Shown: positions 21,479-44,384 of the stretch, piece by piece
Numbering within the stretch: the first letter of the stretch is position 1
Layout: each line of letters starts with the position of its first letter
DNA from: Planktothrix tepida PCC 9214
GTDB lineage: Bacteria > Cyanobacteriota > Cyanobacteriia > Cyanobacteriales > Microcoleaceae
DNA length: 59,366 nucleotides
NCBI RefSeq assembly: GCF_900009145.1
Contig: NZ_LN889762.1
Coordinates: 1-59,366, forward strand
Direction: 5' to 3'
Notes under the pieces: generated by a model
Databases searched by the model: none
Seen by the model: only the letters and a program-made list of their open reading frames with translations
Told to the model about the DNA's origin: nothing
Translations under genes and position numbers: made by a program

Positions 21479-21886
21479 TTAATATTCAGAAGGCAGCATT
21501 AACACACCACCACTAACATAAAGTTTGACTTCAATCAGGGGAAATTTCGTGTACTCAATCTGTTGAATGACAGCAGGTTTTAGACCTTCTTTTGGTGTAT
21601 CCGGCCAGCACGTTAGCACCGCTTGATAGTTATCTTCAGGCAGAAGAAATGGATAATCTCGTTCTCCTTCTCCAGCAACAGATAGCACCCAAACTTGGAA
21701 CTCAGCTAGGTATTCATCCCGCTTCAGTTGATGTTGATAAGAAGCAATGGCATCAATTAACCAATACGCTTCAGCTTGTTCTGCTAAATACTGAATACCA
21801 TCGGTGTAAAGCAATCCGGTAAAGTGGCGATACCAAGTTTCAGTTCCTGTGAATTGAGAGAGATCTGATAAAGTGATAGTGTTCAT
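21479..21886 (-). CDS. DUF6876 family protein
   Basis: 135-aa protein with LSQFTGTETWYRH, YTDGIQYLAEQAEAYWLIDA and ASYQHQL near the N-terminus, the distinctive start of DUF6876 proteins as I know them, common on cyanobacterial plasmids. No activity is known. The gene has its own upstream GCTACCGC element (21917-21924). Confidence 0.75.
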   Translation of the reverse strand: MNTITLSDLSQFTGTETWYRHFTGLLYTDGIQYLAEQAEAYWLIDAIASYQHQLKRDEYLAEFQVWVLSVAGEGERDYPFLLPEDNYQAVLTCWPDTPKEGLKPAVIQQIEYTKFPLIEVKLYVSGGVLMLPSEY

Positions 21887-21916
21887 AATTTTAACCTAAA
21901 AAACTCTCTCCCAAAA

Positions 21917-21924
21917 GCGGTAGC
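21917..21924 (-). promoter_or_regulatory. GCTACCGC element before the DUF6876 gene
   Basis: Core begins 31 nt before the ATG, followed by the T-rich GAGTTTTTTAGG. Confidence 0.6.
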
Positions 21925-21941
21925 CCATTTAATTATTGTTG

Positions 21942-22223
21942 CTAAATTTCGTCTTCTTCAGGAGATAAAGAAGGTAAAATTGGAGTAGCAGAAGGCGGAT
22001 ATGGTAATTGAATTGTTTCAGCAGTTGTGTCATTGACAACAACTTTTAAGAAATAAGCTTCTGCATCGTTACAATAAAATTCAGGATGTTGTTCTTCTCC
22101 AGAAACTAAGGCAGATAATAAAGTGTAAATTAGAGCGATCGCACCTTCTTTATTACAAATTATTTGTGCCGCATCTCTGGCTTGAGTTTGAGGGTACAGA
22201 TGTAGAATAGGTTCAGTTTCCAT
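21942..22223 (-). CDS. hypothetical protein (93 aa)
   Basis: The start is placed at METEPI (22223), because the upstream AATTTTAACA spacing matches neighbouring genes; a longer frame opens at 22250. The protein is acidic with a Pro-rich tail. QARDAAQIICNKEGAIALIY suggests a helical core. It lies between the DUF6876 gene and the 93-aa gene at 22319. No known function and no GCTAnCGC element. Confidence 0.6.
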   Translation of the reverse strand: METEPILHLYPQTQARDAAQIICNKEGAIALIYTLLSALVSGEEQHPEFYCNDAEAYFLKVVVNDTTAETIQLPYPPSATPILPSLSPEEDEI

Positions 22224-22284
22224 TGTTAAAATTGAGGGGAAGCGTTTCAATTCTCAACCAAGTTAAAACTCGATTGTTAGGGTT

Positions 22285-22318
22285 AAATTTCTGGGGGAGC
22301 GACCCCCCAACAACGCAA
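22285..22318 (-). terminator. GGGGG-AGCGA-CCCCC hairpin
   Basis: A perfect G5/C5 hairpin (loop AGCGA on the plus strand) directly downstream of the gene ending at 22319. The T-run is weak. A similar GTGGG-AGCGA-CCCAC hairpin lies at 23414-23428. Confidence 0.5.
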
Positions 22319-22600
22319 TTACTGTTGAACTTTTGCAGACTGAATCATGCGCTGAATCGTAGGATGGCTAAACTGCTGATTCAGGTTTTCTGCTGCCTTG
22401 AATAAACCTTGATAAGCTTGTTCGACAGTTTGCTGAATTTGTTGATAACAAGCGGCATTACGATTCACAGAGGTTGCACTAGATTCTTGAAAATGGCTAT
22501 AAGAATCATTGAGAAGTTTTTGCATTTCTTGACATTTCTCCAAGGCTTGTAACATCTGATTCATTGCCATGTTCATTTCAGCTAAAGCTTTCTCGTTCAT
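22319..22600 (-). CDS. helical hypothetical protein (93 aa)
   Basis: Starts at MNEKALAEMNMAMNQ (22600) behind AGGAGA; a longer frame would overlap the next gene. It is almost entirely helical, Gln/Met-rich, with heptad-like spacing, so a small coiled coil or helical bundle is likely. It has a GCTACCGC element upstream. Function unknown. Confidence 0.65.
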   Translation of the reverse strand: MNEKALAEMNMAMNQMLQALEKCQEMQKLLNDSYSHFQESSATSVNRNAACYQQIQQTVEQAYQGLFKAAENLNQQFSHPTIQRMIQSAKVQQ

Positions 22601-22635
22601 TGGTTTTTCTCCTAGAAAAGAACTAAAATTATTAA

Positions 22636-22643
22636 GCGGTAGC
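22636..22643 (-). promoter_or_regulatory. GCTACCGC element before the 93-aa helical gene
   Basis: Core begins 36 nt before the ATG at 22600. AGTTCTTTTCTAGG follows. Confidence 0.6.
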
Positions 22644-22647
22644 CTTA

Positions 22648-22872
22648 TTAAGAATTGTGAGTTTGTTGCAGTTGCGTAATCAATGATTCTAAAATGGATA
22701 AATGACACGGTTGGAATCGAATCACAAATCCATTGCCACCATTCGGAACACCAGGACAAACCAAATGTGTTGTACCGTCTTCTGAACTGCTAACTACATA
22801 AAGCCAAGTTTCTTGAGTCAGTGAATACGTTGTATCCGTCCAAGTTGTGAGTTTGGATTCTGTGTTTGACAT
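22648..22872 (-). CDS. hypothetical protein (74 aa)
   Basis: Start taken at MSNTES (22872). A small beta-type protein with TWLYVVSSSEDGTTHLVCPG and GNGFVIRFQPCHL. Unrecognised. A GCTACCGC element precedes it, and the GCTACCGC element of the next gene immediately follows its stop codon. Confidence 0.6.
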   Translation of the reverse strand: MSNTESKLTTWTDTTYSLTQETWLYVVSSSEDGTTHLVCPGVPNGGNGFVIRFQPCHLSILESLITQLQQTHNS

Positions 22873-22905
22873 GGAGTTAATTCCTAATAGAACCAACCCC
22901 AAGAA

Positions 22906-22913
22906 GCGGTAGC
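22906..22913 (-). promoter_or_regulatory. GCTACCGC element before the 74-aa gene
   Basis: Core begins 34 nt before the ATG at 22872, followed by GGGTTGGTTCTATTAGG. Confidence 0.6.
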
Positions 22914-22940
22914 GATTTAAGGGACGATTTTACCTTAGCT

Positions 22941-23408
22941 CTAATTTTTCTGTTGCCCTTTCATGCCCAATTGCTGACTAATTTGCTGTTGAATCTCATC
23001 AGAAACATCCCATAATCCAGGTAGACCCCGAACAGGAATCGGTTGTTGTAAAGGTTTAATATCGGTGAATTCCCAAGCAAATCGTCCGGGTTCCCAATAA
23101 CCGCACACCTGCTCAAGATGTGATTGTTTATTAATCAGTTCCCTCGTCATCAAATGAATATCTTTCAATCTGGCAATGGCAATAATTTTACCGAAGGTTG
23201 AATTGAAATAAGGTTCATTAAAATCGATTGAATCGTTTCTCAGTTCCCAAAGAATATCATAATAATCTTCTAAGGGACTCAGAGGTTCTTTTCCGGCATG
23301 AATGGCTATTAATCCTCGATACATCCGTTGCCAATCACGGGTTTCAAACTGTTTCTTTTTCCAGACTAAGAGACTAGCCCAAGGTTGATGAATGGTTAAG
23401 CCTTTCAT
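22941..23408 (-). CDS. ASCH-domain protein
   Basis: 155-aa protein with the ASCH fold, a PUA-like beta-barrel that binds RNA or modified nucleotides. LTIHQPWASLLVWKKKQFET, RDWQRMYRGLIAIHAGKEP and GKIIAIARLKDI mark the conserved strands and the Gly-x-Lys-x2-Glu-Thr-Arg-type loop. Related domains act as coactivators or ribonucleases; which applies here is unknown. Its upstream element differs from GCTAnCGC and includes a GGGAGCGACCC hairpin. Confidence 0.8.
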   Translation of the reverse strand: MKGLTIHQPWASLLVWKKKQFETRDWQRMYRGLIAIHAGKEPLSPLEDYYDILWELRNDSIDFNEPYFNSTFGKIIAIARLKDIHLMTRELINKQSHLEQVCGYWEPGRFAWEFTDIKPLQQPIPVRGLPGLWDVSDEIQQQISQQLGMKGQQKN

Positions 23409-23733
23409 TGGTTTAATAGTGGGAGCGACCCACCCTGACGCTATTTAATAACTATTCTGATTGGGGAGACTTGTATGTTACCAGAAATCAATCGTGATCC
23501 TGATACGTCCATCTCTACTTAACCTCATTCATTAGAAAACCAACATAATCAAGCGGTAGCCAAAAGTTCTAAATTTATTTCTAATTCGGTTATCATTAGA
23601 TTACCCTCATCTACATCATCCACTCCATCCACTCCATCCCGTAGCGATTTAATCACCGGATTAATCCCTACGGGATAACAATTTTTGCTATCTGTTACGC
23701 TATTTGTTATTCTTGCTATTCTTGCTATTCTTG
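23409..23733. other. gene-free stretch with orphan element and hairpins
   Basis: Contains an orphan GCTACCGC core (23553-23560, minus strand) that precedes no convincing gene, short TCCATCCAC repeats (about 23618-23637), a hairpin (CCCGTAG at 23638-23644 with CTACGGG at 23668-23674) and AATAGC-type repeats up to 23747. It looks like the site of a lost gene unit. Confidence 0.6.
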
Positions 23734-23747
23734 CTATCCGCTATTCT
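23690..23747. repeat. AAGAATAGC repeats
   Basis: On the minus strand three 9-bp AAGAATAGC units, then AAATAGCGTAACAGATAGC. The stop codon of the KfrA-like gene lies in the array. It is related to, and inverted against, the array before the recombinase. Confidence 0.75.
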
Positions 23748-24573
23748 TGTGACGGGAGTTGCGTTGTTTTTGAAGGGGGACAAGTTTAGGAGAGGGATCA
23801 TTCGCTGTTTCTGAAGTAGATTTTTGTTGAGATTCTAAGCGAGTAATGGTTTCGTTAGCGTCTTTAAGTTGACTTTGCAAAGTAGAGAGTTGAGATTCTA
23901 AAACCTGCTTTTCACCAACGGCTGAATTCAGTTTAACTAATAAATCATTCCGTTCTTGATGCAGTGAATCCAACTGTTGACGGAATTGTTCGGAATCTGC
24001 TAACTGTTGTTTATTGAGATTGATATAGGCTTCTTTAAGCTCTGACCGTTGCCGTTCATATTCAGACTTGTAGAAATTTAACTCAAGCTGCAACCGAGGA
24101 AAATCTTTGAGTTGTTGTTGAAGTAAATCATTGTCTGAAGTTAAGACTTTCATTCGTTCTCCACTCACAGACGTATCGGCTTTTTGGTAAGCTAGTCGAT
24201 AGGAAGCGATCGCCATTTGTCGAGTTGCCATCAAATATTCTTCGGGAATATCCAACTCATCTAACAATCCATCATCCGTTGCATCCAAAATCACTGAAAC
24301 AATATCTTTTTCTCCTCTTCCAGCTTTCAACAAGAGCAGATGATCGTTTCTCCACTCTCGGAGCAGACCGCAGACGGTATCGGAACTTCCCCCAATCCCA
24401 TAGATGAATTTGAGAGCCGCCTGAACCGAACGGATCACTACACCAATTCTATTCTTCTGGAGCACAGCGCAAGCGGTATCGACCATCTCACGGGTGACGG
24501 CACTGTACTGCTTTTCTTCTATCTGAAATCCTGATAAATCCAAGCTCTGAAACGTTGTTGGTAACTTCGCCAT
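23734..24573 (-). CDS. KfrA-like DNA-binding coiled-coil protein
   Basis: 279-aa protein. The N-terminal 110 residues (SAVTREMVDTACAVLQKNRI, VIRSVQAALKFIYGIGGSSD, VCGLLREWRNDHLL) resemble the KfrA N-terminal DNA-binding domain. A long coiled coil follows (about 140-255) and then a basic tail (RNSRHKNSG). KfrA proteins are plasmid-encoded autoregulators that help plasmid stability. Its place next to the replication and partition genes fits. The HIP1 site at 24208 is intragenic. Confidence 0.75.
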   Translation of the reverse strand: MAKLPTTFQSLDLSGFQIEEKQYSAVTREMVDTACAVLQKNRIGVVIRSVQAALKFIYGIGGSSDTVCGLLREWRNDHLLLLKAGRGEKDIVSVILDATDDGLLDELDIPEEYLMATRQMAIASYRLAYQKADTSVSGERMKVLTSDNDLLQQQLKDFPRLQLELNFYKSEYERQRSELKEAYINLNKQQLADSEQFRQQLDSLHQERNDLLVKLNSAVGEKQVLESQLSTLQSQLKDANETITRLESQQKSTSETANDPSPKLVPLQKQRNSRHKNSG

Positions 24574-24718
24574 TGTTGTCTTGATTTACTCTTCATATCT
24601 TTAATTATACTCCTGAATCTTCCATTGTTGTAAAATTTAACCGAGAGTTTGGGCAGAAAAAGAAAGGCACAATGTTGCTAATCGATTCAAAGTCTATGAC
24701 AAATTCAGGACAAGAGGG

Positions 24719-25063
24719 CTAGAGAAAGTCTAAGTAATCCGCCAGAATACGGAGAATTTTAGAGATTTGGCTTGGAGATAATATCGGGGCTTGATTTTGG
24801 ACTTGCTCTAACAGACGCTCAAAGGGATCTGGCAAGTCTCCAGGATTTTCCAGGTGACTGACAAATTCTGAAATGGTTTCCCCTCGCAAAATGGCGATTT
24901 TCTCCATGTTCTTTTTTTCAGGATACACGGAGCTTTCAGGATTTTCCCAGGCTCTAATAATGGCATGGGACAGTCCCAGAATTTTGGCAAATTCCCTTGT
25001 GCTCCTATTCCCTCTGAGTTGTCTGACAGCTTCAGCAAACTTCTTTCTTTCACTGGGTTTCAC
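24719..25063 (-). CDS. XRE-family regulator (114 aa)
   Basis: Residues 8-62 form a Cro/C1-type helix-turn-helix: FAEAVRQLRGNRSTREFAKI, LGLSHAIIRAWENPES. A helical C-terminus (SPSQISKILRILADYL) may dimerise. It is divergent from the winged-helix replication-type gene at 25184 with 120 bp between them, so it may control that gene and hence plasmid copy number (inference). Confidence 0.8.
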   Translation of the reverse strand: MKPSERKKFAEAVRQLRGNRSTREFAKILGLSHAIIRAWENPESSVYPEKKNMEKIAILRGETISEFVSHLENPGDLPDPFERLLEQVQNQAPILSPSQISKILRILADYLDFL

Positions 25064-25183
25064 TGAAGTACCTAAATGTAAATATCAATATCTTCCTGAT
25101 CATCTCTTATATTTCTTCAATTTGCCAATTTTGGTAAATTAAAGGGTAAATTTTTCACTGTTGGAAAATCAAAGGGTCATGAG

Positions 25184-26179
25184 ATGAGCAATCCTGAATT
25201 ATTATTTGTCAAGATTCGAGATGATGTTGTTGATTGGGTGATGCAGCATGGTTTGAGCAAAACCGAATCTAAGCTATTTTTCTACCTCCTCAAACTTGAC
25301 CGCTTTGGTGATCGTCCCGCTCAGGTAAAAGTCGCAGAAATTCTTCTGAAAACTGGAATTAGTAAAACTTCCTATCACGCTGCTATTGCTAAGTTCCAAG
25401 GTCTGGGATGGTTCGATTTTTGTCATTCTGATGTCAAGGTCAGTAACCTGTGCTGTATTCCGAAATCTCGAACTGATAGTCCAAAATCTCGAACTGATAG
25501 TCCGAAATTCCGAACTGATAGTCCGAAATCTCGAACCGAAATACCGAAATTCCGAACCGAAATTCCGAAATCTCGAACTGAATCTCATGCCCAACCCTTA
25601 CCAAAAGCCAGTTCTAGCTTCTCTCAGACTATTCAGACTTATTCAGACTTTATTCAGACTCTCTCAGACAACGAGAGAACGAGATTTATTAATTTTTGTG
25701 AAGCTAAAACGATTCATTTCAACCCGCCATTGGTGAAGCTGCAAACTTGGTTAGGGTCAATCGATAAAGTCACGGGACTGCCCAACTACATTGAACTTTA
25801 TGATAAATTTCAGCGTTCTCCGCAAGAAGTCCAGATTAGGAACCTGATTCAGCAACAAGCCCAGACGGAACGATGGGAAAGTGACGGCCGTTTATCTGAT
25901 TGGTTATGGGAATGGAGTTGGTTTAGGAACTACGGTCTGACTTCTGAATGGATTAATTTGGCGGCTTCAGAATCCGAACATCAGGAACGCACCGAGTTTG
26001 CCAGTTGGGCAGAAATTCATGGGATTGGACGGTCGGAAACCCAACGAGAAGAAATGCCACCCAGTTTGATTGAAGCTATGTCACTTTCACCTCATGAACA
26101 GCAGAAGATACAAACCTTTACTCAGCAGAAAAAACAGATGAAATCTCGGTTACAGTCCACAGTCACCAGTCCACAGTAA
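25184..26179 (+). CDS. winged-helix plasmid protein with a heptapeptide repeat tract
   Basis: 331-aa protein. Residues 10-88 look like a winged helix (LSKTESKLFFYLLKLD, VKVAEILLKTGISKTSYHAA), as in replication initiators or plasmid regulators. Residues about 92-134 are six to seven copies of a K-S/F-R-T-D/E-S/I-P heptapeptide encoded by 21-bp DNA repeats (about 25461-25585). The rest is Trp-rich and helical. The next gene begins 11 bp downstream. The role in replication is inferred from position. Confidence 0.6.
   Translation: MSNPELLFVKIRDDVVDWVMQHGLSKTESKLFFYLLKLDRFGDRPAQVKVAEILLKTGISKTSYHAAIAKFQGLGWFDFCHSDVKVSNLCCIPKSRTDSPKSRTDSPKFRTDSPKSRTEIPKFRTEIPKSRTESHAQPLPKASSSFSQTIQTYSDFIQTLSDNERTRFINFCEAKTIHFNPPLVKLQTWLGSIDKVTGLPNYIELYDKFQRSPQEVQIRNLIQQQAQTERWESDGRLSDWLWEWSWFRNYGLTSEWINLAASESEHQERTEFASWAEIHGIGRSETQREEMPPSLIEAMSLSPHEQQKIQTFTQQKKQMKSRLQSTVTSPQ
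25461..25585 (+). repeat. 21-bp coding minisatellite
   Basis: About six 21-bp units of the CCGAAATCTCGAACTGATAG type encode the basic heptapeptide tract. Units vary between S/F and D/E codons. Confidence 0.85.
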
Positions 26180-26190
26180 TCAGTCCCGCT

Positions 26191-26685
26191 ATGGTTGATT
26201 TATCCTCTATTCCCAAACTGCAACGGCTCCGGCATCCGAAGGTTGTCCAACAGGAACAACAGATTTATCAACCGTCGTGGCATTGTCACTGTTGCCGAGA
26301 TTCGGGCTTGGTTATTGGGCCTGGAAAAGTCATTGAAGGATATCAAGAAATGGAAGATTTACCTGTCCTCTGTAACCGCCCCGGTTGTTCCGCAGCTTCT
26401 CAGTGGCGACAGATGGGACTCGATGAACGGGTTAGTCCAGAAATCTGTCAACTGCTTCATGATTTTAGTGTGGAAGATTGGAAAGTTACCGTTAAACTTC
26501 AGTGGAGTCGTGCTAAACAAATTGCTGAACAAATCGCTATCCTCAGTCAGAAGAAGTCTCTCCGACCCCAGGGATGCGAACGCACTGACAACGATGAACG
26601 AGAAATTCAGATTCGTAAAGAAAATGTCCAAGCCCAATTAGATACTTATGGAGAGAATTCAACCGAGAAGTTAATTAAATCCTGA
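26191..26685 (+). CDS. zinc-finger-like plasmid protein (164 aa)
   Basis: The N-terminal half has WHCHCCRDSG and LCNRPGCSAA, two cysteine pairs spaced about 30 residues apart, a likely zinc ribbon. The C-terminal half is helical (AKQIAEQIAIL, RKENVQAQLDTYG). It lies 11 bp downstream of the winged-helix gene and upstream of CyRepA1, so it is probably part of the replication operon. Function unknown. Confidence 0.65.
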   Translation: MVDLSSIPKLQRLRHPKVVQQEQQIYQPSWHCHCCRDSGLVIGPGKVIEGYQEMEDLPVLCNRPGCSAASQWRQMGLDERVSPEICQLLHDFSVEDWKVTVKLQWSRAKQIAEQIAILSQKKSLRPQGCERTDNDEREIQIRKENVQAQLDTYGENSTEKLIKS

Positions 26686-26814
26686 TTGTCTAATGCTTTG
26701 GGCTTTAAATCCAAGCCTTTCTCACACACCGAGATGGAGTTTCTCAAGTCGTAGAGATTTGTTAAATGTTACCGAGATTGATTGATTTTTCAACGAATTT
26801 AGGCTTAAATGATT

Positions 26815-26853
26815 ATCACCCACAGGAATCTTTGCGAGGCTTCTGCGGGTGAT
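26815..26853 (+). promoter_or_regulatory. hairpin over the replication-gene start
   Basis: ATCACCC (26815-26821) pairs with GGGTGAT (26847-26853), extended by CAG/CTG. The 3' arm covers the GTG start at 26849 and masks the GAGG upstream. It may control translation of the replication protein. Confidence 0.55.
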
Positions 26854-35909: not shown

Positions 35910-35917
35910 GCGGTAGC
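35910..35917 (-). promoter_or_regulatory. GCTACCGC element, distant, before the 247-aa gene
   Basis: Core begins 91 nt before the ATG at 35826, immediately after the upstream gene's terminator. TTTTTTGAGTTGG follows. A (GAAACT)-type tandem stretch fills the extra distance. Confidence 0.55.
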
Positions 35918-37017: not shown

Positions 37018-37368
37018 TCAAGCGGTAGCAAGTTGAGGAGGTGTTAAAACAATCAATTTTCCTTCAGGACTAATGATGTAACTTCCAGGTCTGAAGAATT
37101 CTCGAACATCAGTAATTCGTAAATGCTGAAGATTCAAACATCCGTAAGCGTAAGCATCCCAAAACTGATTACTCCACAGATAGTCACACAGATAAAAGGC
37201 ATATTTTGGGTAATAACATTGCGGTGCTAACAGTCCGAAACAACCTTTCTGATATTCTTGAACTGGTTTACCTAACATTTCCTGAGAATGACGACTAATT
37301 AACCAGAAATCTGCACCAGGAAAAGCCGAGTGAATTGTCCAAAGAATAGGATGGCGTTCGTAATACAT
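37018..37368 (-). CDS. hypothetical protein (116 aa)
   Basis: Start at 37368 (MYYERHP), because GGAG precedes it and the element spacing then matches the other units. The protein is aromatic-rich (YYPKYAFYLCDYLWSNQFWD) with YGCLNLQHLRITDVREFF. Unrecognised. It ends ...ATA-stop within the next unit's GCTACCGC core. Confidence 0.65.
   Translation of the reverse strand: MYYERHPILWTIHSAFPGADFWLISRHSQEMLGKPVQEYQKGCFGLLAPQCYYPKYAFYLCDYLWSNQFWDAYAYGCLNLQHLRITDVREFFRPGSYIISPEGKLIVLTPPQLATA
37022..37029 (-). promoter_or_regulatory. GCTACCGC element before the 94-aa gene
   Basis: Core begins 35 nt before 36985-36987 and is part of the preceding reading frame. GTAGTTTTCTTA follows. Confidence 0.65.
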
Positions 37369-37402: not shown

Positions 37403-37410
37403 GCGGTAGC
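37403..37410 (-). promoter_or_regulatory. GCTACCGC element before the 116-aa gene
   Basis: Core begins 36 nt before the ATG at 37368. CAGTTGTTTTTCTGGAG follows, and the core starts just after the stop of the SLOG gene. Confidence 0.65.
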
Positions 37411-37413
37411 GAA

Positions 37414-37954: not shown

Positions 37955-37962
37955 GCGGTAGC
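37955..37962 (-). promoter_or_regulatory. GCTACCGC element before the SLOG gene
   Basis: Core begins 32-39 nt before the ATG at 37923, three bases after the previous unit's terminator T-run. Confidence 0.7.
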
Positions 37963-37965
37963 AAT

Positions 37966-37993
37966 AAAAAAAGCCCCTAGATTTCTCTAAAGG
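37966..37993 (-). terminator. terminator of the 2OG-oxygenase gene
   Basis: CCTTTAGA-GAAA-TCTAGGGG, then CTTTTTTTATT on the minus strand. Confidence 0.85.
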
Positions 37994-38011
37994 ACTTAAA
38001 CTTGATTAAAC

Positions 38012-38554
38012 CTAATACAAACTTTTAAAACCTTTCGCTTTATTTAATTTCCAAAACACCAAACTAAATCTTTCTTCAGTTAGGATTTCTTTAACCGCAT
38101 GAAGAATTTTACAATTAAATTCAATAATGTCACCATCCTGAAGAAGATAATCAGTTTGTTCTGGTTCACCGTAACTAAAGATTGCTTCACCTAAATTAAC
38201 ACTAACTGCTTTAGGATTTGCATAGCTATGATCTCGATGTAAACCAATTCTGCCATCACTGACTTGATTATTATCTAATTGTCCACCGAAAGTTAACAAA
38301 CCAATATCACAACCCGGATAAACCCGTTGACTAAAGTTATAGATTCTGTCATCAAAATAGCCTTTACTAAGTTTACCATTTCTGAAGTCAACATCATGAA
38401 AAATCCATAACCGATATCTGCCTTTCGCATAGTTACTAGGGTCTGCAACTAATTGAGATTTCAGAGATTGACACCAATTTCTCAAGGCTTCTGGATTTTC
38501 AACAGTAGTTAACTTTCTAAGTTCAGTTGCAAAATTTAATTTAGTTTTGTTCAT
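38012..38554 (-). CDS. 2OG-Fe(II) oxygenase-like protein
   Basis: 180-aa protein with the double-stranded beta-helix signature: IGLHRDHSY (His-x-Asp iron ligands), DGDIIEFNCKILHAV (distal His) and RFSLVFWK (Arg for the 2-oxoglutarate carboxylate). The layout is closest to AlkB/prolyl-hydroxylase-type enzymes. The substrate (nucleic acid or protein) is unknown. It is a single-gene unit with its own element and terminator. Confidence 0.8.
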   Translation of the reverse strand: MNKTKLNFATELRKLTTVENPEALRNWCQSLKSQLVADPSNYAKGRYRLWIFHDVDFRNGKLSKGYFDDRIYNFSQRVYPGCDIGLLTFGGQLDNNQVSDGRIGLHRDHSYANPKAVSVNLGEAIFSYGEPEQTDYLLQDGDIIEFNCKILHAVKEILTEERFSLVFWKLNKAKGFKSLY

Positions 38555-38586
38555 GTTAATTTACCCAAAAACTTCATCAACTCTTA

Positions 38587-38594
38587 GCGATAGC
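38587..38594 (-). promoter_or_regulatory. GCTATCGC element before the oxygenase gene
   Basis: Variant core with T at position 5, beginning 33-40 nt before the ATG at 38554. AAGTTTTTGGG follows. Confidence 0.65.
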
Positions 38595-38614
38595 TTCCTA
38601 ATTAGTTGAGGTTC

Positions 38615-38644
38615 AATAAAAGAACCCTAGCGTTTGCTAAGGTT
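38615..38644 (-). terminator. terminator of the pseudopilin gene
   Basis: AACCTTAGC-AAAC-GCTAGGGTT, then CTTTTATT. Confidence 0.85.
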
Positions 38645-38650
38645 ATCAAT

Positions 38651-39187
38651 TTATTTCTGACAATCTTTACCTTTACGGATATCAATATTAGTTTCATATC
38701 CCAGATTATCAACATTCTTCAGAGTTTGAAATAAACACATTGTATTGCGATTGGTCAGAGGTTCATTGGCTGTTCTTGTCGTGAAAGTTATTCGTCCTAA
38801 TTGACCACCGTTAGTGTTACCAGAGAAAGATATTTTGTAGAAATCATTGCCTTTGCCAGAAATACTACCAGCTTTATTAGAAAATGTTGAATTAGTAACA
38901 TCTAAACTGACTCCAGAAGGTAAGGATTTGATGGATTTATTGTGACAATTTCCATCTGTTGTTGAGGTGATTTGACCTTCAAGAATACAAACTGTTTTGA
39001 TACCAGAATCAGTGAGGGCATCATATCGAGATTGAGTTGTATATTGTTTAACTTGATGAATTGTTGCGACTAATCGACTTAACTTGAGATAATTCAAAAA
39101 CATTGGTAAACTAATTGAACTTAAAATACCAATAATTACAATAACAACTAAAAGTTCAGTCAGAGATTTGCCAGATTCAGATTTCAT
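38651..39187 (-). CDS. type IV pseudopilin (GspH/FimT-like)
   Basis: Start at MKSESG (39187). It has a prepilin leader with cleavage after Gly in ESGKSLTELLVV, Glu at mature position 5, then a 20-residue hydrophobic helix (VIVIIGILSSISLP). The C-terminal part is a Thr/Ser/Asn-rich beta domain with cysteines. It needs a prepilin peptidase and assembly machinery encoded elsewhere. Its presence as a lone unit in this plasmid-like row is unusual; a role in DNA uptake or adhesion is possible. Confidence 0.85.
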   Translation of the reverse strand: MKSESGKSLTELLVVIVIIGILSSISLPMFLNYLKLSRLVATIHQVKQYTTQSRYDALTDSGIKTVCILEGQITSTTDGNCHNKSIKSLPSGVSLDVTNSTFSNKAGSISGKGNDFYKISFSGNTNGGQLGRITFTTRTANEPLTNRNTMCLFQTLKNVDNLGYETNIDIRKGKDCQK

Positions 39188-39218
39188 AATAATTACAAAA
39201 AACAACTACTTTCTCTGC

Positions 39219-39226
39219 GCGATAGC
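39219..39226 (-). promoter_or_regulatory. GCTATCGC element before the pseudopilin gene
   Basis: Core begins 32-39 nt before the ATG at 39187. GTAGTTGTTTTTTG follows. This spacing supports the MKSESG start. Confidence 0.65.
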
Positions 39227-39307
39227 GTCCTATTCCAAAAACTCTAAAAAAAAATCCCCAGACTTGTGCTGAGGAACGAAGTATTGCTCCAGGGATGAAA
39301 TCATTAG

Positions 39308-39475
39308 TTAAAATTCGTCATAATCAATTGATGTTTGAGATTGAGAATTAGTGTTATAATCAGGTTTAGATTCTTCTAATTCATCTTCATCCCAAAGATA
39401 ATCATAAGATGGTGAATTATCAGGACAGAAATAGGGAATGCCGCCAACTTCGATCCATTGACCGTTATCTAACAT
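39308..39475 (-). CDS. hypothetical acidic protein (55 aa)
   Basis: Start at MLDNGQW (39475). It is very acidic with repeated Asp/Tyr and a disordered Asn/Ser tail. Unrecognised. It is supported as a gene by its own upstream element and by the preceding terminator. Confidence 0.6.
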   Translation of the reverse strand: MLDNGQWIEVGGIPYFCPDNSPSYDYLWDEDELEESKPDYNTNSQSQTSIDYDEF

Positions 39476-39508
39476 GATGATTAATCCAAAAACAACTACC
39501 ATCTGTTA

Positions 39509-39516
39509 GCGGTAGC
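39509..39516 (-). promoter_or_regulatory. GCTACCGC element before the 55-aa gene
   Basis: Core begins 34-41 nt before the ATG at 39475. GTAGTTGTTTTTGGA follows. It sits 7 nt after the upstream terminator. Confidence 0.7.
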
Positions 39517-39522
39517 GCCTAA

Positions 39523-39548
39523 TAAAAAAGCCTCTGGAAAACCAGAGA
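39523..39548 (-). terminator. terminator of the second SLOG-like gene
   Basis: CTCTGG-TTTT-CCAGAG, then GCTTTTTTATT. Confidence 0.9.
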
Positions 39549-39559
39549 CGGAATTAAAT

Positions 39560-39952
39560 TTATTGAATTAAAACAACTCTCATGCGATTACCTAACTGTT
39601 CAATATTTCGTTTAGTTCCACGACTACGACCATCCCAAATTGCTAAACCAAACTTACAATATCGGTGCATACTTCTATCTCTATCTGTATAATTTCCAGA
39701 AACTTCAACAGTATGCCAATTGCCAATATTATTCCGAGGTTTGTTGCCAATATGCCAAACTTGAACAGAAGGATAATTAACAGAATGGAGATAAGATTGA
39801 ACTAAAGTGTCAATACCCGGAGCATCACCCATCCGAATTTGGTAATTGAGTTCAATGATTTTGTTGATTCTAGCAATACATTCTGAATTTAAAGATTTGA
39901 TTGAACGTGAACCTGAAATTGCAACAGAGACAGGGAGTTGAATAGAGTTCAT
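39560..39952 (-). CDS. SLOG-like protein (DUF2493/YspA-type)
   Basis: 130-aa Rossmann protein. SVAISGSRSIKSLNSECIAR begins like DUF2493 members; MGDAPGIDTLVQSYL is the glycine loop, and GLAIWDGRSRGTKRNIEQ resembles the second ligand loop. It belongs to the nucleotide-sensing SLOG superfamily but is clearly a different subfamily from the gene at 37414. Ligand unknown. Confidence 0.75.
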   Translation of the reverse strand: MNSIQLPVSVAISGSRSIKSLNSECIARINKIIELNYQIRMGDAPGIDTLVQSYLHSVNYPSVQVWHIGNKPRNNIGNWHTVEVSGNYTDRDRSMHRYCKFGLAIWDGRSRGTKRNIEQLGNRMRVVLIQ

Positions 39953-39981
39953 GATTTTACCTTACACTTCATTAACTAATT

Positions 39982-39989
39982 GCGTTAGC
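39982..39989 (-). promoter_or_regulatory. GCTAACGC element before the second SLOG-like gene
   Basis: Variant core with A at position 5, beginning 30-37 nt before the ATG at 39952. Confidence 0.65.
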
Positions 39990-40001
39990 TTCTGATAAAA
40001 A

Positions 40002-40035
40002 AAGACCGTACAGACGTGCCATGGCACGTCTCTAC
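40002..40035 (-). terminator. palindromic repeat acting as terminator
   Basis: The 28-bp element at 40008-40035 (inner 20 bp AGACGTGCCATGGCACGTCT perfectly palindromic) is followed on the minus strand by GGTCTTTTTTT. It probably terminates the 135-aa gene. A second copy is at 41912-41939. Confidence 0.75.
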
Positions 40036-40072
40036 TAGATTAGGGATCTAATTAGCTAGGCTGAGATTTGAA

Positions 40073-40477
40073 CTATTTAACGAGATTTAGCTTAATGCCA
40101 AGTGATTGCAAATATTCGTAATATTCGTCAGGAGACATTGGTTTCTCGCTATCTTCGCCGCCATAGTTAACATAATTAAGCGGATTTAAACTATCCAAAT
40201 AAGCTATAAATGAAGCTGCCCGAATAATGACATCAGCAAGAGATTTATCAGCAACACAAAGGATCATCTGGGGATTGGCTGCTAAACCTTTCAATACTTT
40301 GAGATTGTGGCTTGCTGGAGAGACTCGCATTACCTTAATATCTTCCCAAAACAATTGTCGCATTTGTTCAGCCGTTGGCATAGTTGCACCGAATCTAAAA
40401 TCATTTAGGGTAATTTTCGGTTTGGTTGAAGATTTCTGAACACGGATCGGTAGGATGGGAAAGTTAGGTTGCATCAT
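40073..40477 (-). CDS. hypothetical protein (134 aa)
   Basis: Start at MMQPNFP (40477). It has a basic N-terminal arm, a helical middle (PTAEQMRQLFWEDIKVMRV, LADVIIRAASFIAYLDSL) and an acidic tail. Unrecognised. It is a single-gene unit with its own element and terminator. Confidence 0.65.
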   Translation of the reverse strand: MMQPNFPILPIRVQKSSTKPKITLNDFRFGATMPTAEQMRQLFWEDIKVMRVSPASHNLKVLKGLAANPQMILCVADKSLADVIIRAASFIAYLDSLNPLNYVNYGGEDSEKPMSPDEYYEYLQSLGIKLNLVK

Positions 40478-40505
40478 TAAAACCAAAAAACAACACTACC
40501 TTTTG

Positions 40506-40513
40506 GCGTTAGC
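40506..40513 (-). promoter_or_regulatory. GCTAACGC element before the 134-aa gene
   Basis: Core begins 29-36 nt before the ATG at 40477. GTTGTTTTTTGG follows. Confidence 0.7.
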
Positions 40514-40535
40514 CGTCCAAACCATTAACTTTAAA

Positions 40536-40567
40536 TAAAAAAAAGCCCCAATCTCACAAAGAGACTG
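40536..40567 (-). terminator. terminator of the 114-aa gene
   Basis: AGTCTC-TTTGT-GAGATT stem, then GGGGCTTTTTTTTATT. Confidence 0.75.
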
Positions 40568-40594
40568 AAGCTTTTAGTTAACAGAAACTAGAAA

Positions 40595-40939
40595 CTAGAA
40601 TGCAGGTTGGTCTGTAGAGGAATTAGATTCTGTGTATTGGCTACCATTCCCATTGTTGTAGGAAGATTTACGAGAATAGTAGTCTTCACGGATTTCTTGA
40701 ATTTCATCTTCAGAATAGCCAAGAGACTTAACAAGCTTCTGAACTTTGGGTAAATCCATTTTGTGAATCTCGTGATTTTCCCACTCTTTAGAGAAGACTT
40801 CATAAAGTTTAAGACCTTCAAGCTTTTTCTGACCTTCAGCAGGCTTATATTCAGCTTTATAGGCTTGCCAAGCGAGGATTCGCAAACCGTCAACGAGGAG
40901 AGAGCATTGTTTTTCAGATTTAGTAGGAATAGAAAGCAT
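40595..40939 (-). CDS. hypothetical protein (114 aa)
   Basis: Helical protein (LLVDGLRILAWQAYKAEYKP, KVQKLVKSLGYSEDEIQEIR) with a disordered Ser/Asn-rich tail (YNNGNGSQYTESNSS). Unrecognised. Single-gene unit with element and terminator. Confidence 0.65.
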   Translation of the reverse strand: MLSIPTKSEKQCSLLVDGLRILAWQAYKAEYKPAEGQKKLEGLKLYEVFSKEWENHEIHKMDLPKVQKLVKSLGYSEDEIQEIREDYYSRKSSYNNGNGSQYTESNSSTDQPAF

Positions 40940-40976
40940 GGTAAATAAACTCCAAAAAATTAACTACCCTCCTTTG

Positions 40977-40984
40977 GCGATAGC
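40977..40984 (-). promoter_or_regulatory. GCTATCGC element before the 114-aa gene
   Basis: Core begins 38-45 nt before the ATG at 40939. GTTAATTTTTTGGAG follows. Confidence 0.65.
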
Positions 40985-41012
40985 CACCCTCACCGATTAC
41001 TTGCGATTACGT

Positions 41013-41420
41013 CTATATCCAATTCTCCATAAACCAATCCTGAGTTTTCAGCCACCCGATGGCAGCTACAATTACATCACCATGACAAGGCAGCGGTGAA
41101 CAGTAGCAAACTAACATTAATTCTGTGTGAGTCTCAGCTAAATCTTTTTCCACTCTGGCAATATTAATGAGTTCTATCATAATCCGGTCAAGCGGTAATC
41201 CATCTCTCATGGCTTTTATTGAATTCCACAGGTGTTGTTTATAAAGTGCGATGGCTTCTAGCCGGGCGTAGCCCATCGCTAAATTGCGGTTAACGGTTTT
41301 CGTGATTGGATAAGGATTATATAAAGGACTTTCCTTTAAGTTATAGTATCTGTTATATCTTCCAATATAGATTTTATTAGAGCCAATGAATCCATCAATT
41401 TTACCGTTGATTACCTTCAT
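41013..41420 (-). CDS. DUF4326 protein
   Basis: 135-aa protein with KIYIGRYNRYYNLKESPLYN near the N-terminus and LMLVCYCSPLPCHGDVI near the C-terminus, the two marks of DUF4326. The Cys-x-Cys-x4-Cys-His group may bind metal. Such proteins occur in phages and plasmids next to nucleotide-handling genes. It has no GCTAnCGC element. Confidence 0.8.
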   Translation of the reverse strand: MKVINGKIDGFIGSNKIYIGRYNRYYNLKESPLYNPYPITKTVNRNLAMGYARLEAIALYKQHLWNSIKAMRDGLPLDRIMIELINIARVEKDLAETHTELMLVCYCSPLPCHGDVIVAAIGWLKTQDWFMENWI

Positions 41421-41449
41421 TCTAAATTACCTCTAATCAAAGGTTCAAA

Positions 41450-41475
41450 ATCAGGCAGTTATTAAACCGCCCGAT
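41450..41475 (-). terminator. terminator of the KGG-repeat gene
   Basis: ATCGGGCGGTT-TAAT-AACTGCCTGAT, then TTTG. Three imperfect 12-bp GATTCAATTAA units lie between it and the gene. Confidence 0.7.
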
Positions 41476-41496
41476 TAAGATTCAATTAAGATTCAA

Positions 41497-41745
41497 TTAG
41501 GATTCATTAACATCATTAGAGTTAGTATTTTTATGGCTATTTTTACCGCCTTTGCGTCCAATAGTAGCCATGTGTTCCCGATTCTGACTTACGGCTTTAC
41601 CGCCTTTGCGCCCTGCTTCTCTAGCTGTTTCCGATGTCCATTTATGAGCAGTTCCTTTCTCATGAGCCGTCTTTCCACCCTTACTAGCAATTTCACGTTG
41701 TTGCTCTTTGTCCATTGAAGCAAATCCTCGTTTTTTGATAGTCAT
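41497..41745 (-). CDS. KGG-repeat stress-type protein
   Basis: 82-aa hydrophilic protein with three KGG motifs (ASKGGKTAHEKG, AGRKGGKAVSQ, IGRKGGKNSHK), the stress-induced repeat found in GsiB/YciG-type proteins. Predicted disordered, possibly protective under desiccation or osmotic stress. It has no GCTAnCGC element. Confidence 0.85.
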   Translation of the reverse strand: MTIKKRGFASMDKEQQREIASKGGKTAHEKGTAHKWTSETAREAGRKGGKAVSQNREHMATIGRKGGKNSHKNTNSNDVNES

Positions 41746-41911
41746 AAACCGATTAATTAACTCAACATTCTGAATCTAATTTTAGCACAATAATACCCTT
41801 ACTTTAAGTCTAAAAAATCTTAATAAAGGTTGTTTTCTCATGGTTATTCATGATATGATTAATAACGATGAATAGATTGGAAAGATAAGGTTAACTAGAA
41901 TTAAATCTACA

Positions 41912-41939
41912 GTACAGACGTGCCATGGCACGTCTCTAC
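41912..41939. repeat. 28-bp palindromic repeat, second copy
   Basis: Identical 28 bp to 40008-40035. It lies downstream of the minus-strand gene ending at 41954. This class of palindrome is common in filamentous cyanobacteria as I recall. Confidence 0.85.
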
Positions 41940-41953
41940 AATTAACCTTTAAT

Positions 41954-42199
41954 TTAGGTTTTATCTAATTCCCAAATAGAATATAATAAAATTAAGGGAA
42001 CTTTTCGAGCTAAGAATCTCCCCGGAAATCTAACCCAAATTCCATTATCAGCGATTGAAAAGATGATTCCAAATCTTCCCCTCAAGTTATATTCTCCACT
42101 GGAATCAAAGCCAGTAATTTTAACTTTCTGTCCTCTCTTGAGTTTAGGATATAATGGCAATTCCAATTGAACATAGTTGCTGTTGATTTTACTTTTCAT
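41954..42199 (-). CDS. small SH3-like hypothetical protein (81 aa)
   Basis: Basic beta-type protein (KRGQKVKITGFDSSGEYNLR, GRFGIIFSIADNGIWVRFPG) of the sort seen in KOW/SH3-like barrels. Its function is unknown and it has no GCTAnCGC element. Confidence 0.6.
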   Translation of the reverse strand: MKSKINSNYVQLELPLYPKLKRGQKVKITGFDSSGEYNLRGRFGIIFSIADNGIWVRFPGRFLARKVPLILLYSIWELDKT

Positions 42200-42220
42200 A
42201 ATTTATTGATGGGTAGAAAA

Positions 42221-42277
42221 AATAAACCAACAACATTAAGCTTGTGCCGAGGAACGAACTAATGCTGCTGATTTATT
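42221..42277 (-). terminator. terminator of the 120-aa gene
   Basis: Long stem with G-T pairs: AATAAATCAGCAGCATTAG with the AATAAACCAACAACATTAA arm, ending in TTTTTTC. Confidence 0.7.
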
Positions 42278-42296
42278 AAATCTTGATTTATTGACT

Positions 42297-42659
42297 CTAA
42301 GGATTAAATTTTTCGTAAAGAATGCGATAGGCTTTTTGAATTAATTCGCTGCTATTTGCTATAAATTCAGCATGAGGAACTTTGGCAACCCGGTAAATCT
42401 TAATCATTGCCCATCTTTCATCAGAATCTATTTCAGGGCCACATTCACCGCAACTTTCGATAATTTCAACTGAAACATTCTTTGCCCATATCGTAAATGC
42501 AACATGGTATCGGTTAAAATCATCGTTATCAGGCATTATAAACTTAGAAAATCGAATATAAGGGATCAGTTTACCTTCTGGTGATTCCCAAGTGTCACTT
42601 TCCTCCTGCCATTCTTTACTAAGGCATTCAATCACTTTATCTCTTATGCTGTTCATCAC
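42297..42659 (-). CDS. hypothetical protein, paralogue A (120 aa)
   Basis: Begins MNSIRDKVIECLSKEWQEES and shares the whole layout with the next gene (IPYIRFSKFIMP, AFTIWAKNVSVEI, ELIQKAYRILYEKF). The two arose by tandem duplication and have diverged widely. Unrecognised fold. It has its own GCTAACGC element and terminator. Confidence 0.65.
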   Translation of the reverse strand: MMNSIRDKVIECLSKEWQEESDTWESPEGKLIPYIRFSKFIMPDNDDFNRYHVAFTIWAKNVSVEIIESCGECGPEIDSDERWAMIKIYRVAKVPHAEFIANSSELIQKAYRILYEKFNP

Positions 42660-42689
42660 TTGTTTCTAACTAAACTTCATTTTCATTAA

Positions 42690-42697
42690 GCGTTAGC
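42690..42697 (-). promoter_or_regulatory. GCTAACGC element before paralogue A
   Basis: Core begins 31-38 nt before 42659. GAAGTTTAGTTAG follows. Confidence 0.6.
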
Positions 42698-42771
42698 TTC
42701 GATAGCAAATATCAATAAGTTACTCAAGAGAACATAGTTGTTGATTTGATGTTTCGTAATTTATTGGTGGG

Positions 42772-42810
42772 TAAAAAAAATAAACCAACAACTTATGCTG
42801 CTGGTTTATT
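42772..42810 (-). terminator. terminator of paralogue B
   Basis: AATAAACCAGCAGC / GTTGTTGGTTTATT stem, then TTTTTTTT. Closely related to the terminator of paralogue A, so the duplication included the terminator. Confidence 0.8.
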
Positions 42811-42827
42811 ATGTCTTATTGAGTTTA

Positions 42828-43157
42828 TTAGGGAATAAAATGCTTATACAAATACTGATGTGCAGATTCAATTAATTCATCGCTTCTCTCAAGAAAATCA
42901 GCAAAAGTAACTTGGGCAATTCTCCGCATTGTATTAAGATCATCACAAGTTGAAGAGTATTCTTGAATATCCGTAGTTACACTTTTACCCCAAACTGTAA
43001 CCGCCACGCAATAACGGAAATCTTTATTATTTTGTGGCATTATGGGATTAGAGAAACGAACATAAGGAATGATTTTATCAGTTTTCCATTCTTCATCTTC
43101 CCTGTCCCATCCTTTGGAACTGAGACATTCAATCACTTTATCTCTTATGCTGTTCAT
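42828..43157 (-). CDS. hypothetical protein, paralogue B (109 aa)
   Basis: Begins MNSIRDKVIECLSSKGWDRE; aligns along its length with the 120-aa neighbour (IPYVRFSNPIMP, AVTVWGKSVTTDI, ELIESAHQYLYKHF). It has no GCTAnCGC element, unlike paralogue A. Confidence 0.65.
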   Translation of the reverse strand: MNSIRDKVIECLSSKGWDREDEEWKTDKIIPYVRFSNPIMPQNNKDFRYCVAVTVWGKSVTTDIQEYSSTCDDLNTMRRIAQVTFADFLERSDELIESAHQYLYKHFIP

Positions 43158-43195
43158 GTTTCAATTTCCTCAATCAAGAAATGTTACTAAAATTC

Positions 43196-43231
43196 ATCAA
43201 TAACGCTACTCAAGGGAATAACGCTATTGAT
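43196..43231 (-). terminator. repeated hairpin, terminator of the 91-aa gene
   Basis: A 36-bp inverted repeat (ATCAATAGCGTTATTC arm with G-T pairs) followed by a T-rich stretch. Nearly identical to 43565-43600. Confidence 0.65.
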
Positions 43232-43246
43232 TTTGTTATTTGCTAT

Positions 43247-43519
43247 CTATCGTTCATACCAAGAAACTGAATTATAATTGTCTGCAAGAAACTCAACAAT
43301 TGGAACCAGCGACTGATCAATTTTAGCTACTTTTTCCTTTAATTCATCAGAAGCAATTTTTTGTCCTGAAGCCAATAAGAAACCAATGTAAGGATACCAA
43401 TCTCTGCACCATTCATCATTTTGAACTTCTCCTAAATGTTGACAAATCTTTCGATTTATTTCTACAAACGGTTCAGGTTGATTAGTTGAACGTGAAATTA
43501 GTTGAAAACAATTGGGCAT
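43247..43519 (-). CDS. hypothetical protein (90 aa)
   Basis: Start at MPNCFQL (43519). Helical small protein with WCRDWYPYIGFLLASGQKI in the middle. Unrecognised. Own GCTACCGC element and hairpin terminator. Confidence 0.6.
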   Translation of the reverse strand: MPNCFQLISRSTNQPEPFVEINRKICQHLGEVQNDEWCRDWYPYIGFLLASGQKIASDELKEKVAKIDQSLVPIVEFLADNYNSVSWYER

Positions 43520-43552
43520 CTTCTTTACCTGATAATTAATCAACAATCTTTA

Positions 43553-43560
43553 GCGGTAGC
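43553..43560 (-). promoter_or_regulatory. GCTACCGC element before the 90-aa gene
   Basis: Core begins 34-41 nt before the ATG at 43519, five bases after the upstream hairpin. Confidence 0.65.
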
Positions 43561-43564
43561 TATA

Positions 43565-43600
43565 ATCAATAACGCTACTCAAGAGAATAACGCTATTGAT
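43565..43600 (-). terminator. repeated hairpin, terminator of the 119-aa gene
   Basis: Copy of 43196-43231 with one mismatch in the loop. Confidence 0.65.
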
Positions 43601-43611
43601 TTTGTTATTTG

Positions 43612-43971
43612 TTACTGAAGTTCGTTAAGCAACTGGACAAGTGATTCAGGCGAGAGTTTTCTGACTTTAAACTCAAGAGGAAAATGTTTGTTACGTTTAG
43701 AATCTCGGAAATCGTCAATCTGACCGCCATAGAATTGAATTTGATCTGAAATAGCCGATAATTCAGGTTTAGAACAACCAATATAAGTGATGAAGGAAAC
43801 AAAACCAGATTGTTGTTCAGGGTTCTCTTCCCACTGGAATTTATTATTAATCGCGCCCACGATTACAATGCGTTTACTGAGTTGAACTGTCAAGTAACTT
43901 CCATGAGGTGAAATCGATAAAACTTTACCTTGAATTCCCGCAAAAGTGATGTTAGAATTAATTCGTAACAT
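43612..43971 (-). CDS. hypothetical protein (119 aa)
   Basis: Start at MLRINSN (43971), behind GGAG. It has a beta-rich N-terminus (ITFAGIQGKVLSISPHGSYL) and a helical C-terminus (RKLSPESLVQLLNELQ). Unrecognised. Own GCTACCGC element and terminator. Confidence 0.65.
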   Translation of the reverse strand: MLRINSNITFAGIQGKVLSISPHGSYLTVQLSKRIVIVGAINNKFQWEENPEQQSGFVSFITYIGCSKPELSAISDQIQFYGGQIDDFRDSKRNKHFPLEFKVRKLSPESLVQLLNELQ

Positions 43972-44005
43972 AATGATTACTCCAAAAAACAACTAAAACT
44001 TAAAA

Positions 44006-44013
44006 GCGGTAGC
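44006..44013 (-). promoter_or_regulatory. GCTACCGC element before the 119-aa gene
   Basis: Core begins 35-42 nt before the ATG at 43971. AGTTGTTTTTTGGAG follows, the clearest full version of the element. Confidence 0.7.
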
Positions 44014-44060
44014 TAGGAATTTTCCGTTACACCTAATTACCGCTTAATTTATTTGAAAGT

Positions 44061-44339
44061 CTAAATCTGGGCTAAGATTTCTCCAATTTTGTTATAATCA
44101 TCATCCCTGCCATTCTCATAATTTCCATAACCTGCGCCTGTGTAGTAGAAAGTGTTGTCAGTCGGCATGAAGATAATGCAAGTGTGACGGTATAAAGGAA
44201 ATAAATCTTTTAAATGGGGTTGAATATTTTCTCGTTCCCATTTGAGCTTTGCATTAAGCTTATCAAAAATGCTACCTTGGGATTGATCAGGTTCAGGAGG
44301 AGGAAGTTTAGAACCGAATTTAGGTGGGATTCTAATCAT
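44061..44339 (-). CDS. hypothetical protein (92 aa)
   Basis: Start at MIRIPPKF (44339). A basic Pro-rich N-terminus is followed by a Tyr/Gly-rich tail (DNTFYYTGAGYGNYENG). Unrecognised. Own GCTACCGC element. It lies downstream of the DNA ligase gene. Confidence 0.6.
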   Translation of the reverse strand: MIRIPPKFGSKLPPPEPDQSQGSIFDKLNAKLKWERENIQPHLKDLFPLYRHTCIIFMPTDNTFYYTGAGYGNYENGRDDDYNKIGEILAQI

Positions 44340-44376
44340 TGTAAAATTCCATTGGAAATAAAACCAACAGCTTAAA

Positions 44377-44384
44377 GCGGTAGC
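44377..44384 (-). promoter_or_regulatory. GCTACCGC element before the 92-aa gene
   Basis: Core begins 38-45 nt before the ATG at 44339 and lies just past the stop codon of the ligase gene. Confidence 0.65.

Follow-up and report, generated by a model that had tools for sequence, protein, structure and literature searches.

The contig NZ_LN889762.1 of Planktothrix tepida PCC 9214 (59,366 nucleotides (nt), analysed over its whole length and called the window here) is, judged from its sequence, a Planktothrix-type plasmid. It encodes a CyRepA1 plasmid replication protein, and in a megablast search the part from 34500 to 59366 gave partial matches, each covering no more than 9% of the query, in seven plasmid records, six of them from Planktothrix. 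We focus on two of its features: an octamer, GCTA(C/T/A)CGC (GCTAHCGC), that recurs upstream of an array of small genes, and a gene predicted to encode a single-chain two-barrel RNA polymerase (RNAP) (Table 1). The window holds 18 exact matches to GCTAHCGC, every one of them on the minus strand, compared with a mean of 1.38 and a maximum of 6 in 100 dinucleotide shuffles of the window.

The initial annotation had listed 16 genes sharing this octamer, and a check of their upstream regions found it at all 16. Measured to the start codon, the octamer starts at 36–45 nt and ends at 28–37 nt; the 29–45 nt given earlier seems to have mixed these two measures. The distant copy attributed to gene 35826 and the variant attributed to gene 51460, which has one mismatch, were where they had been described, and the copy near gene 23408 is an addition to that list. 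No exact octamer lies within 70 nt upstream of seven further starts that were checked (23408, 36593, 41420, 41745, 42199, 43157 and 45222), so the octamer does not stand in front of every gene. The T-rich box said to follow it is present for most copies, its G(T/A)(T/A)G falling, by eye, at a variable 8–12 nt past the octamer. Within the strain's own 6.78-Mb genome, GCTAHCGCN{4,14}AGTTGTTTT matched four times, always on this contig, and the looser GCTAHCGCN12GTTG matched four times on this contig and once on another, with one match for the reversed control.

Table 1. Octamer copies and polymerase-associated genes in the window
Feature	Position	Strand	Remarks
Octamer GCTACCGC	21917..21924	-	upstream of gene 21886 (DUF6876)
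Octamer GCTACCGC	22636..22643	-	upstream of gene 22600
Octamer GCTACCGC	22906..22913	-	upstream of gene 22872
Octamer GCTACCGC	23553..23560	-	~150 nt upstream of gene 23408
Octamer GCTACCGC	35910..35917	-	91 nt upstream of gene 35826
Octamer GCTACCGC	37022..37029	-	upstream of gene 36987; inside 3' end of preceding open reading frame
Octamer GCTACCGC	37403..37410	-	upstream of gene 37368 (DUF6943)
Octamer GCTACCGC	37955..37962	-	upstream of gene 37923 (YpsA-like SLOG)
Octamer GCTATCGC	38587..38594	-	upstream of gene 38554
Octamer GCTATCGC	39219..39226	-	upstream of gene 39187 (pilin-like N-terminus)
Octamer GCTACCGC	39509..39516	-	upstream of gene 39475
Octamer GCTAACGC	39982..39989	-	upstream of gene 39952
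Octamer GCTAACGC	40506..40513	-	upstream of gene 40477
Octamer GCTATCGC	40977..40984	-	upstream of gene 40939
Octamer GCTAACGC	42690..42697	-	upstream of gene 42659 (GTG) or 42656 (ATG)
Octamer GCTACCGC	43553..43560	-	upstream of gene 43519
119-amino-acid (aa) array protein, MotA-like candidate	43612..43971	-	co-conserved with RNAP
Octamer GCTACCGC	44006..44013	-	upstream of gene 43971 (MotA-like candidate)
Octamer GCTACCGC	44377..44384	-	upstream of gene 44339
447-aa protein with hydrophobic stretches	46238..47581	+	directly 5' of RNAP gene; in 17/18 groups compared
Single-chain two-barrel RNAP (predicted), 875 aa	47585..50212	+	DxDGD at residues 462-466
HU-type DNA-binding protein with GYF_2 domain	50272..50844	+	adjoins RNAP; in 12/18 groups compared
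Variant GCTACCAC	51494..51501	-	41 nt upstream of gene 51460; pair 2-7 broken

The reported lack of a consistent TATAAT held up when we counted sigma-70-like sites: there were 35 in 35.0–45.3 kb against 34.2 expected, and the −35/−10 hexamers of sigma-70 promoters were not above background in this region. Terminator-like sites were enriched in the array (13 versus 6.2, standard deviation 2.8), 12 of the 13 being on the minus strand and one overlapping the octamer at 39516; many of the array genes are thus probably separate units. A short shared element at a narrow distance upstream of many unrelated genes could be an operator to which a repressor encoded by the plasmid binds, close to ordinary promoters of the host, and phage SP-beta has SOS-box operators upstream of several genes (PMC8270828). 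The absence of sigma-70-like enrichment argues against this, as does the non-palindromic TNNC centre, unlike a dimer site; of the 18 groups compared, moreover, 7 have relatives of the small helix-turn-helix gene at 24719 and none has relatives of that at 51098. We therefore regard an operator as very improbable.

The gene at 47585, first noted as polymerase-like, encodes the DxDGD signature together with the predicted fold of the single-chain two-barrel RNAPs. Residues G460, D462, D464, G465 and D466 were invariant across 29 aligned RNAP sequences, corresponding to the DxDGD/DxDxD metal-binding signature. The predicted fold of the 875-aa protein matches, in one chain, the class that includes QDE-1, RDR2 and phage RNAPs; QDE-1 and RDR2 were the best structural matches, at 10–14% identity in those alignments. 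This structural model makes the protein a predicted single-chain two-barrel RNAP. Its sequence profile gave a chance row alone against PDB (4v15, E 0.054), no Pfam or NCBIfam family was found for it, and it matches PHROG 34895, a family without an assigned function. The same genome holds a second, weak RNAP-like match (G000:C59:218555-219466, E 1.4e-13, in a 1394-aa frame), and longer distant relatives are found in many other genomes of the order. Two RNAP copies occur in each of two genomes of the genus Planktothrix (G510:C2, and G255:C2, C3), in G510 on the same contig (15321 and 73454).

Motif and polymerase were found together across genomes. The strict pattern GCTAYCGCN10TGWTGWTTT, searched in 386 cyanobacterial genomes, had 17 places in 7 genomes, and the reversed pattern had 4 matches in 4 other genomes. 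A close relative of the RNAP (profile E < 1e-200) was present in 14 of the 386; all 7 motif genomes were among these 14, and all 17 places lay on the RNAP-bearing contig (Fisher p 1.4e-11). The pattern itself came from RNAP-bearing plasmids, and the genome search was not confined to them. With a relaxed pattern in 388 genomes of the order, a sample overlapping the 386, we found 32 places in 21 genomes, 24 of which (13 genomes) were on the RNAP contig; the 8 off that contig were singletons, equal in number to the reversed-control matches (8). The relaxed motif was present in 13 of the 24 RNAP genomes versus 8 of the 364 others (p 6.9e-13). In viral contigs, 48 stretches matched the strict motif once each, which we took as chance, and there was one RNAP relative (locus L053). 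From these sequence comparisons we consider it probable that the octamer and its T-rich box act as promoter for the single-chain two-barrel RNAP encoded by the plasmid itself (47585-50212) and for its relatives. Three options had been offered originally, and it is the promoter of a dedicated polymerase that gained from the predicted RNAP and the co-location of motif and RNAP, an operator or 5' untranslated element now being less likely.

The polymerase's chief rival in this account, or else its partner, is a MotA-like factor whose gene lies in the array. The octamer could be a double-stranded box for the 119-aa protein of the 43612-43971 family, which would recruit host or plasmid RNAP in the manner of T4 MotA at middle promoters; the polymerase itself would then not read the octamer. 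The predicted structure of this family bears a weak likeness to the DNA-binding domain of T4 MotA, and the presence of the protein correlates with that of the RNAP nearly as well as the motif does, which counts against assigning recognition to the polymerase. T4 middle promoters keep the host −10 element; unlike them, the window array shows no sigma-70-like enrichment. We regard such a box as unlikely, while giving it more weight than any other rival. A fold like that of single-stranded DNA-binding protein (SSB) was also considered for the 119-aa family and rejected, no SSB being among the structural matches listed for the model.

RNAP-encoding plasmids of other genera carry arrays of small genes in the same layout, with different octamers; the conserved order is octamer, about 10 nt, a TGWTGWTTT-like box and the start codon. 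The octamer is GCTATCGC in Anabaena WA102 and CCTACCGG in Phormidium yuhuli, with GTTTTCAC, ACTTTCGT, ATTTTCAT and GCTTTCGC in Cyanobacterium aponinum and CCTATCGG and ACTATCGT in Synechocystis B12. A de novo expectation-maximization search that made no hairpin assumption recovered the element clearly in at least 6 of 10 loci (L010, L016, L024, L025, L026 and L029); no element stood out clearly in L011 and L009, and the signal was weak in L017 and L027, where the element is visible by eye. An octamer of this form was the commonest or joint-commonest upstream 8-mer in 10 of 20 locus sets, and GCTGTCGC was the top 8-mer for L021, L022 and L028 combined, with 11 of its 14 copies in L028. The upstream 8-mer test found no such octamer in L053, L013, L014, L041 or L043; despite this result, L043 (RNAP about 29% identical) has several octamer copies with GATG-type boxes. 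The L031 lineage has a 7-mer, GCTTCGC, with 10 copies on one strand and 0 on the other. Genome G064 has the RNAP together with a dense array, containing GCTACCGC at least 12 times, on a contig of 5.84 Mb (L150-L153, G064:C1 4050001-4130000), which suggests that array and RNAP are integrated in a chromosome.

Two other arrangements were seen in these loci. Facing octamers, GGCGATAGC ... GCTACCGCC, lie upstream of one gene at L001:16700-16730, and likewise in L002, L003 and L015. Upstream of genes near a distant RNAP, GCTNNCGC followed by AAGTCC occurs in 15 contexts, read as about three homologous positions (L014:6189, 7281 and 28204, the last preceding an SSB gene, and homologous places in Pseudanabaena). 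The latter may be the element in a diverged form, with a different box, a likeness that is suggestive only.

Comparison of the relatives' octamers revealed that bases 1/8 and 2/7 change jointly as Watson–Crick pairs around an invariant T..C, a feature that the initial annotation lacked and that is visible only by such comparison. Anchored on T3, C6 and a downstream box at 9–11 nt, a scan yielded 266 sites, 234 after de-duplication, versus 33 in reversed sequence, where the control was not de-duplicated. At the 10-nt spacing (133 of the 234 sites), pairs 1-8 and 2-7 were both complementary in 97; the corresponding figures were 11 of 49 at 9 nt and 14 of 52 at 11 nt. With GC..GC stems excluded, 24 of 60 were complementary, versus a mean of 5.6 and a maximum of 16 in 20,000 permutations, the sites not being fully independent because related plasmids are included in the set. 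Stem swaps were found within single plasmids, upstream of different genes. Using the perfect box as the only anchor, we obtained 86 sites versus 8 in reversed sequence; both pairs were at the expected place in 33, of which all 33 had T3 and 32 had C6, while 5 more sites had a paired 7-mer and 48 had neither. Positions 0 and 9 were complementary in only 86 of the 234 anchored sites, giving a stem of mostly 2 base pairs (bp) and a loop of mostly 4 nt. An earlier relaxed scan (168 sites, 108 with pair 1-8; permutation mean 70, maximum 87; reversed control 48) was diluted by background and is superseded by the anchored and box-only scans.

Covarying ends at 36–45 nt upstream of the start codon would also be expected of an RNA hairpin in the 5' leader that controls translation or stability, with transcription starting further upstream. 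There is little room for such an upstream promoter: the octamer of gene 36987 lies inside the end of the upstream open reading frame (ORF), those of 22600, 37368 and 44339 begin no more than 5 nt from it, and a T-run of at least 5 occurs in the preceding 45 nt for 5 of the 16 octamers. We know of no stable class to which the sense-strand RNA loop, U-N-N-C, would belong. The RNA would carry this loop, whereas the invariant G and A of the other strand fit a DNA mini-hairpin class (PMC4686876), and we hold a leader hairpin to be improbable. Fold-like covariation, together with small unrelated genes that run in one direction and in many cases carry the element, would equally suit the ends of exchangeable gene cassettes folded single-stranded, as in integrons; the elements stay at a narrow distance from start codons and keep the TGWTGWTTT-like box, which makes cassette ends hardly credible.

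The template strand of the octamer reads XY-GNNA-Y'X', and that of GCTTCGC reads GCGAAGC. In mini-hairpin DNA the loop is GNA or GNNA and contains a G-A pair, next to at least two G-C pairs, and GCGAAGC melts at 78 °C (PMC4686876). At promoters of the N4 virion RNAP, supercoiling extrudes a hairpin that contains a sheared 5'G:A3' pair and is stabilised by SSB; its stem bases are not conserved and are required for pairing alone (PMC4496689). On the template strand the two ends of the octamer appear capable of pairing across a G..A loop, from which we infer that a hairpin may form. That the plasmid two-barrel RNAP reads promoters that are template-strand DNA mini-hairpins, d(XY-GNNA-Y'X'), is a proposal we make tentatively, as a serious possibility rather than a probability. 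In the most likely mechanism, negative supercoiling or RNAP binding would let the template-strand octamer (or GCGAAGC in one lineage) fold, as at N4 promoters, into a mini-hairpin containing a sheared G.A pair. The plasmid RNAP, alone or with the MotA-like 119-aa protein, would recognise the folded octamer and dock; transcription would begin near the TGWTGWTTT-like box and yield a short leader. Many of the small genes would form units of their own, transcribed independently of the host sigma factor.

Several observations weigh against the polymerase as reader of the octamer, or against the hairpin. Because its box sits at other spacings, the window does not match the strict pattern searched across the phylum; 11 of the 24 RNAP genomes of the order have no relaxed-pattern match. 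The RNAP-bearing viral contig L053 shows no array in the 16 kb analysed. Pseudanabaena-type loci, whose RNAP shares about 28% identity, show no enrichment of the loop class (GC-TNNC-GC had 132 distinct sites versus 40-884 for 15 other end classes). The box-only scan lacked a paired octamer at that spacing in 53 of its 86 sites. Pairing is not absolute, since Lyngbya L017 has 5 TCTACCGC and 2 ACTACCGC beside 4 paired octamers and the 51460 variant GCTACCAC in the window breaks one pair. A 2-bp stem is very short and, to our knowledge, would be the smallest such signal. With ViennaRNA DNA parameters, four GC-stem octamers gave −0.8 kcal/mol for the template and −0.4 for the non-template strand, and the GTTTTCAC and GCTTCGC types gave 0; these energy parameters seem to miss a loop bonus, because GCGAAGC is known as very stable.

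Elsewhere on the plasmid, genes for Cas1 and Cas2 lie at 53804-55077, where a stretch matches the annotated cas1/cas2 of plasmid NC_019677. After them, at about 55.6–59 kb, short ORFs on both strands repeat one peptide in what looks like a plasmid array of clustered regularly interspaced short palindromic repeats (CRISPR). An ORF at 14720-16162 is reverse-transcriptase/maturase-like, judged from its translation. The gene at 45287-46165 has tail-fibre PHROG matches, and it and the 46238 gene, both 5' of the RNAP, look phage-like. Phage P23-45 carries a virion RNAP as a fusion with its tape-measure protein (PMC10770324); this fusion and the phage-like genes 5' of the RNAP make a phage ancestry of the cluster possible. 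No capsid or terminase gene was noticed near the RNAP cluster, in the course of work that included no search aimed at them. A phage origin was rejected, as 34500-59366 had no megablast match in phages and the RNAP no tblastn match in phages.

QDE-1 and RDR2, the closest structural matches, are RNA-dependent RNAPs of eukaryotic RNA silencing, unlike an enzyme of plasmid transcription. Already known are the single-chain two-barrel RNAPs as a class, their occurrence in cyanobacteria (PMC5467207) and promoter motifs for two of the phage enzymes (PMC10770324); our searches of the open PMC literature listed no cyanobacterial plasmid RNAP with such promoters, no hairpin-class promoter for the superfamily and no such plasmid regulon. 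The two-barrel superfamily is also that of the cellular RNAPs. Recognition is directly testable here because promoter candidates, the likely cognate enzyme and natural stem swaps occur together. If the proposal is true, a sigma-independent private transcription layer would extend across cyanobacterial plasmids and one chromosome-sized contig, and would offer a compact orthogonal promoter–polymerase pair for cyanobacterial biotechnology.

YonO of phage SP-beta is, as predicted for the window RNAP, a single-chain two-barrel enzyme of about 100 kDa, and YonO-like proteins occur in cyanobacterial genomes; it serves one late operon with one mapped start, its promoter sequence being stated as still to be determined (PMC5467207). 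In the window, by contrast, a promoter-like element precedes each of 16 genes, and these are carried on a plasmid. Gp64 and gp96 of Thermus phage P23-45 are two more RNAPs of the single-chain two-barrel class. Their proposed DNA promoter motifs, GC-rich and AT-rich, derive from transcript starts and chromatin immunoprecipitation sequencing, in a paper whose main text does not use the word hairpin (PMC10770324). In bases 1-50000 of P23-45, none of the 15 commonest 8-mers upstream of minus-strand genes had the paired TNNC/GNNA form. The N4 virion RNAP promoters resemble the element proposed here in their GC-rich template-strand hairpin and differ in the size of the loop, which is 3 bases, and in their longer stem, which measures 7 bp in the crystal construct (PMC4496689), whereas here the loop is mostly 4 nt and the stem 2 bp; the GCTTCGC of the L031 lineage shares the 3-base loop. 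The N4 enzyme is T7-like and the window RNAP is predicted to be two-barrel, so that the hairpin reading, if true, would represent a second origin of DNA-structure promoters, independent of that of N4.

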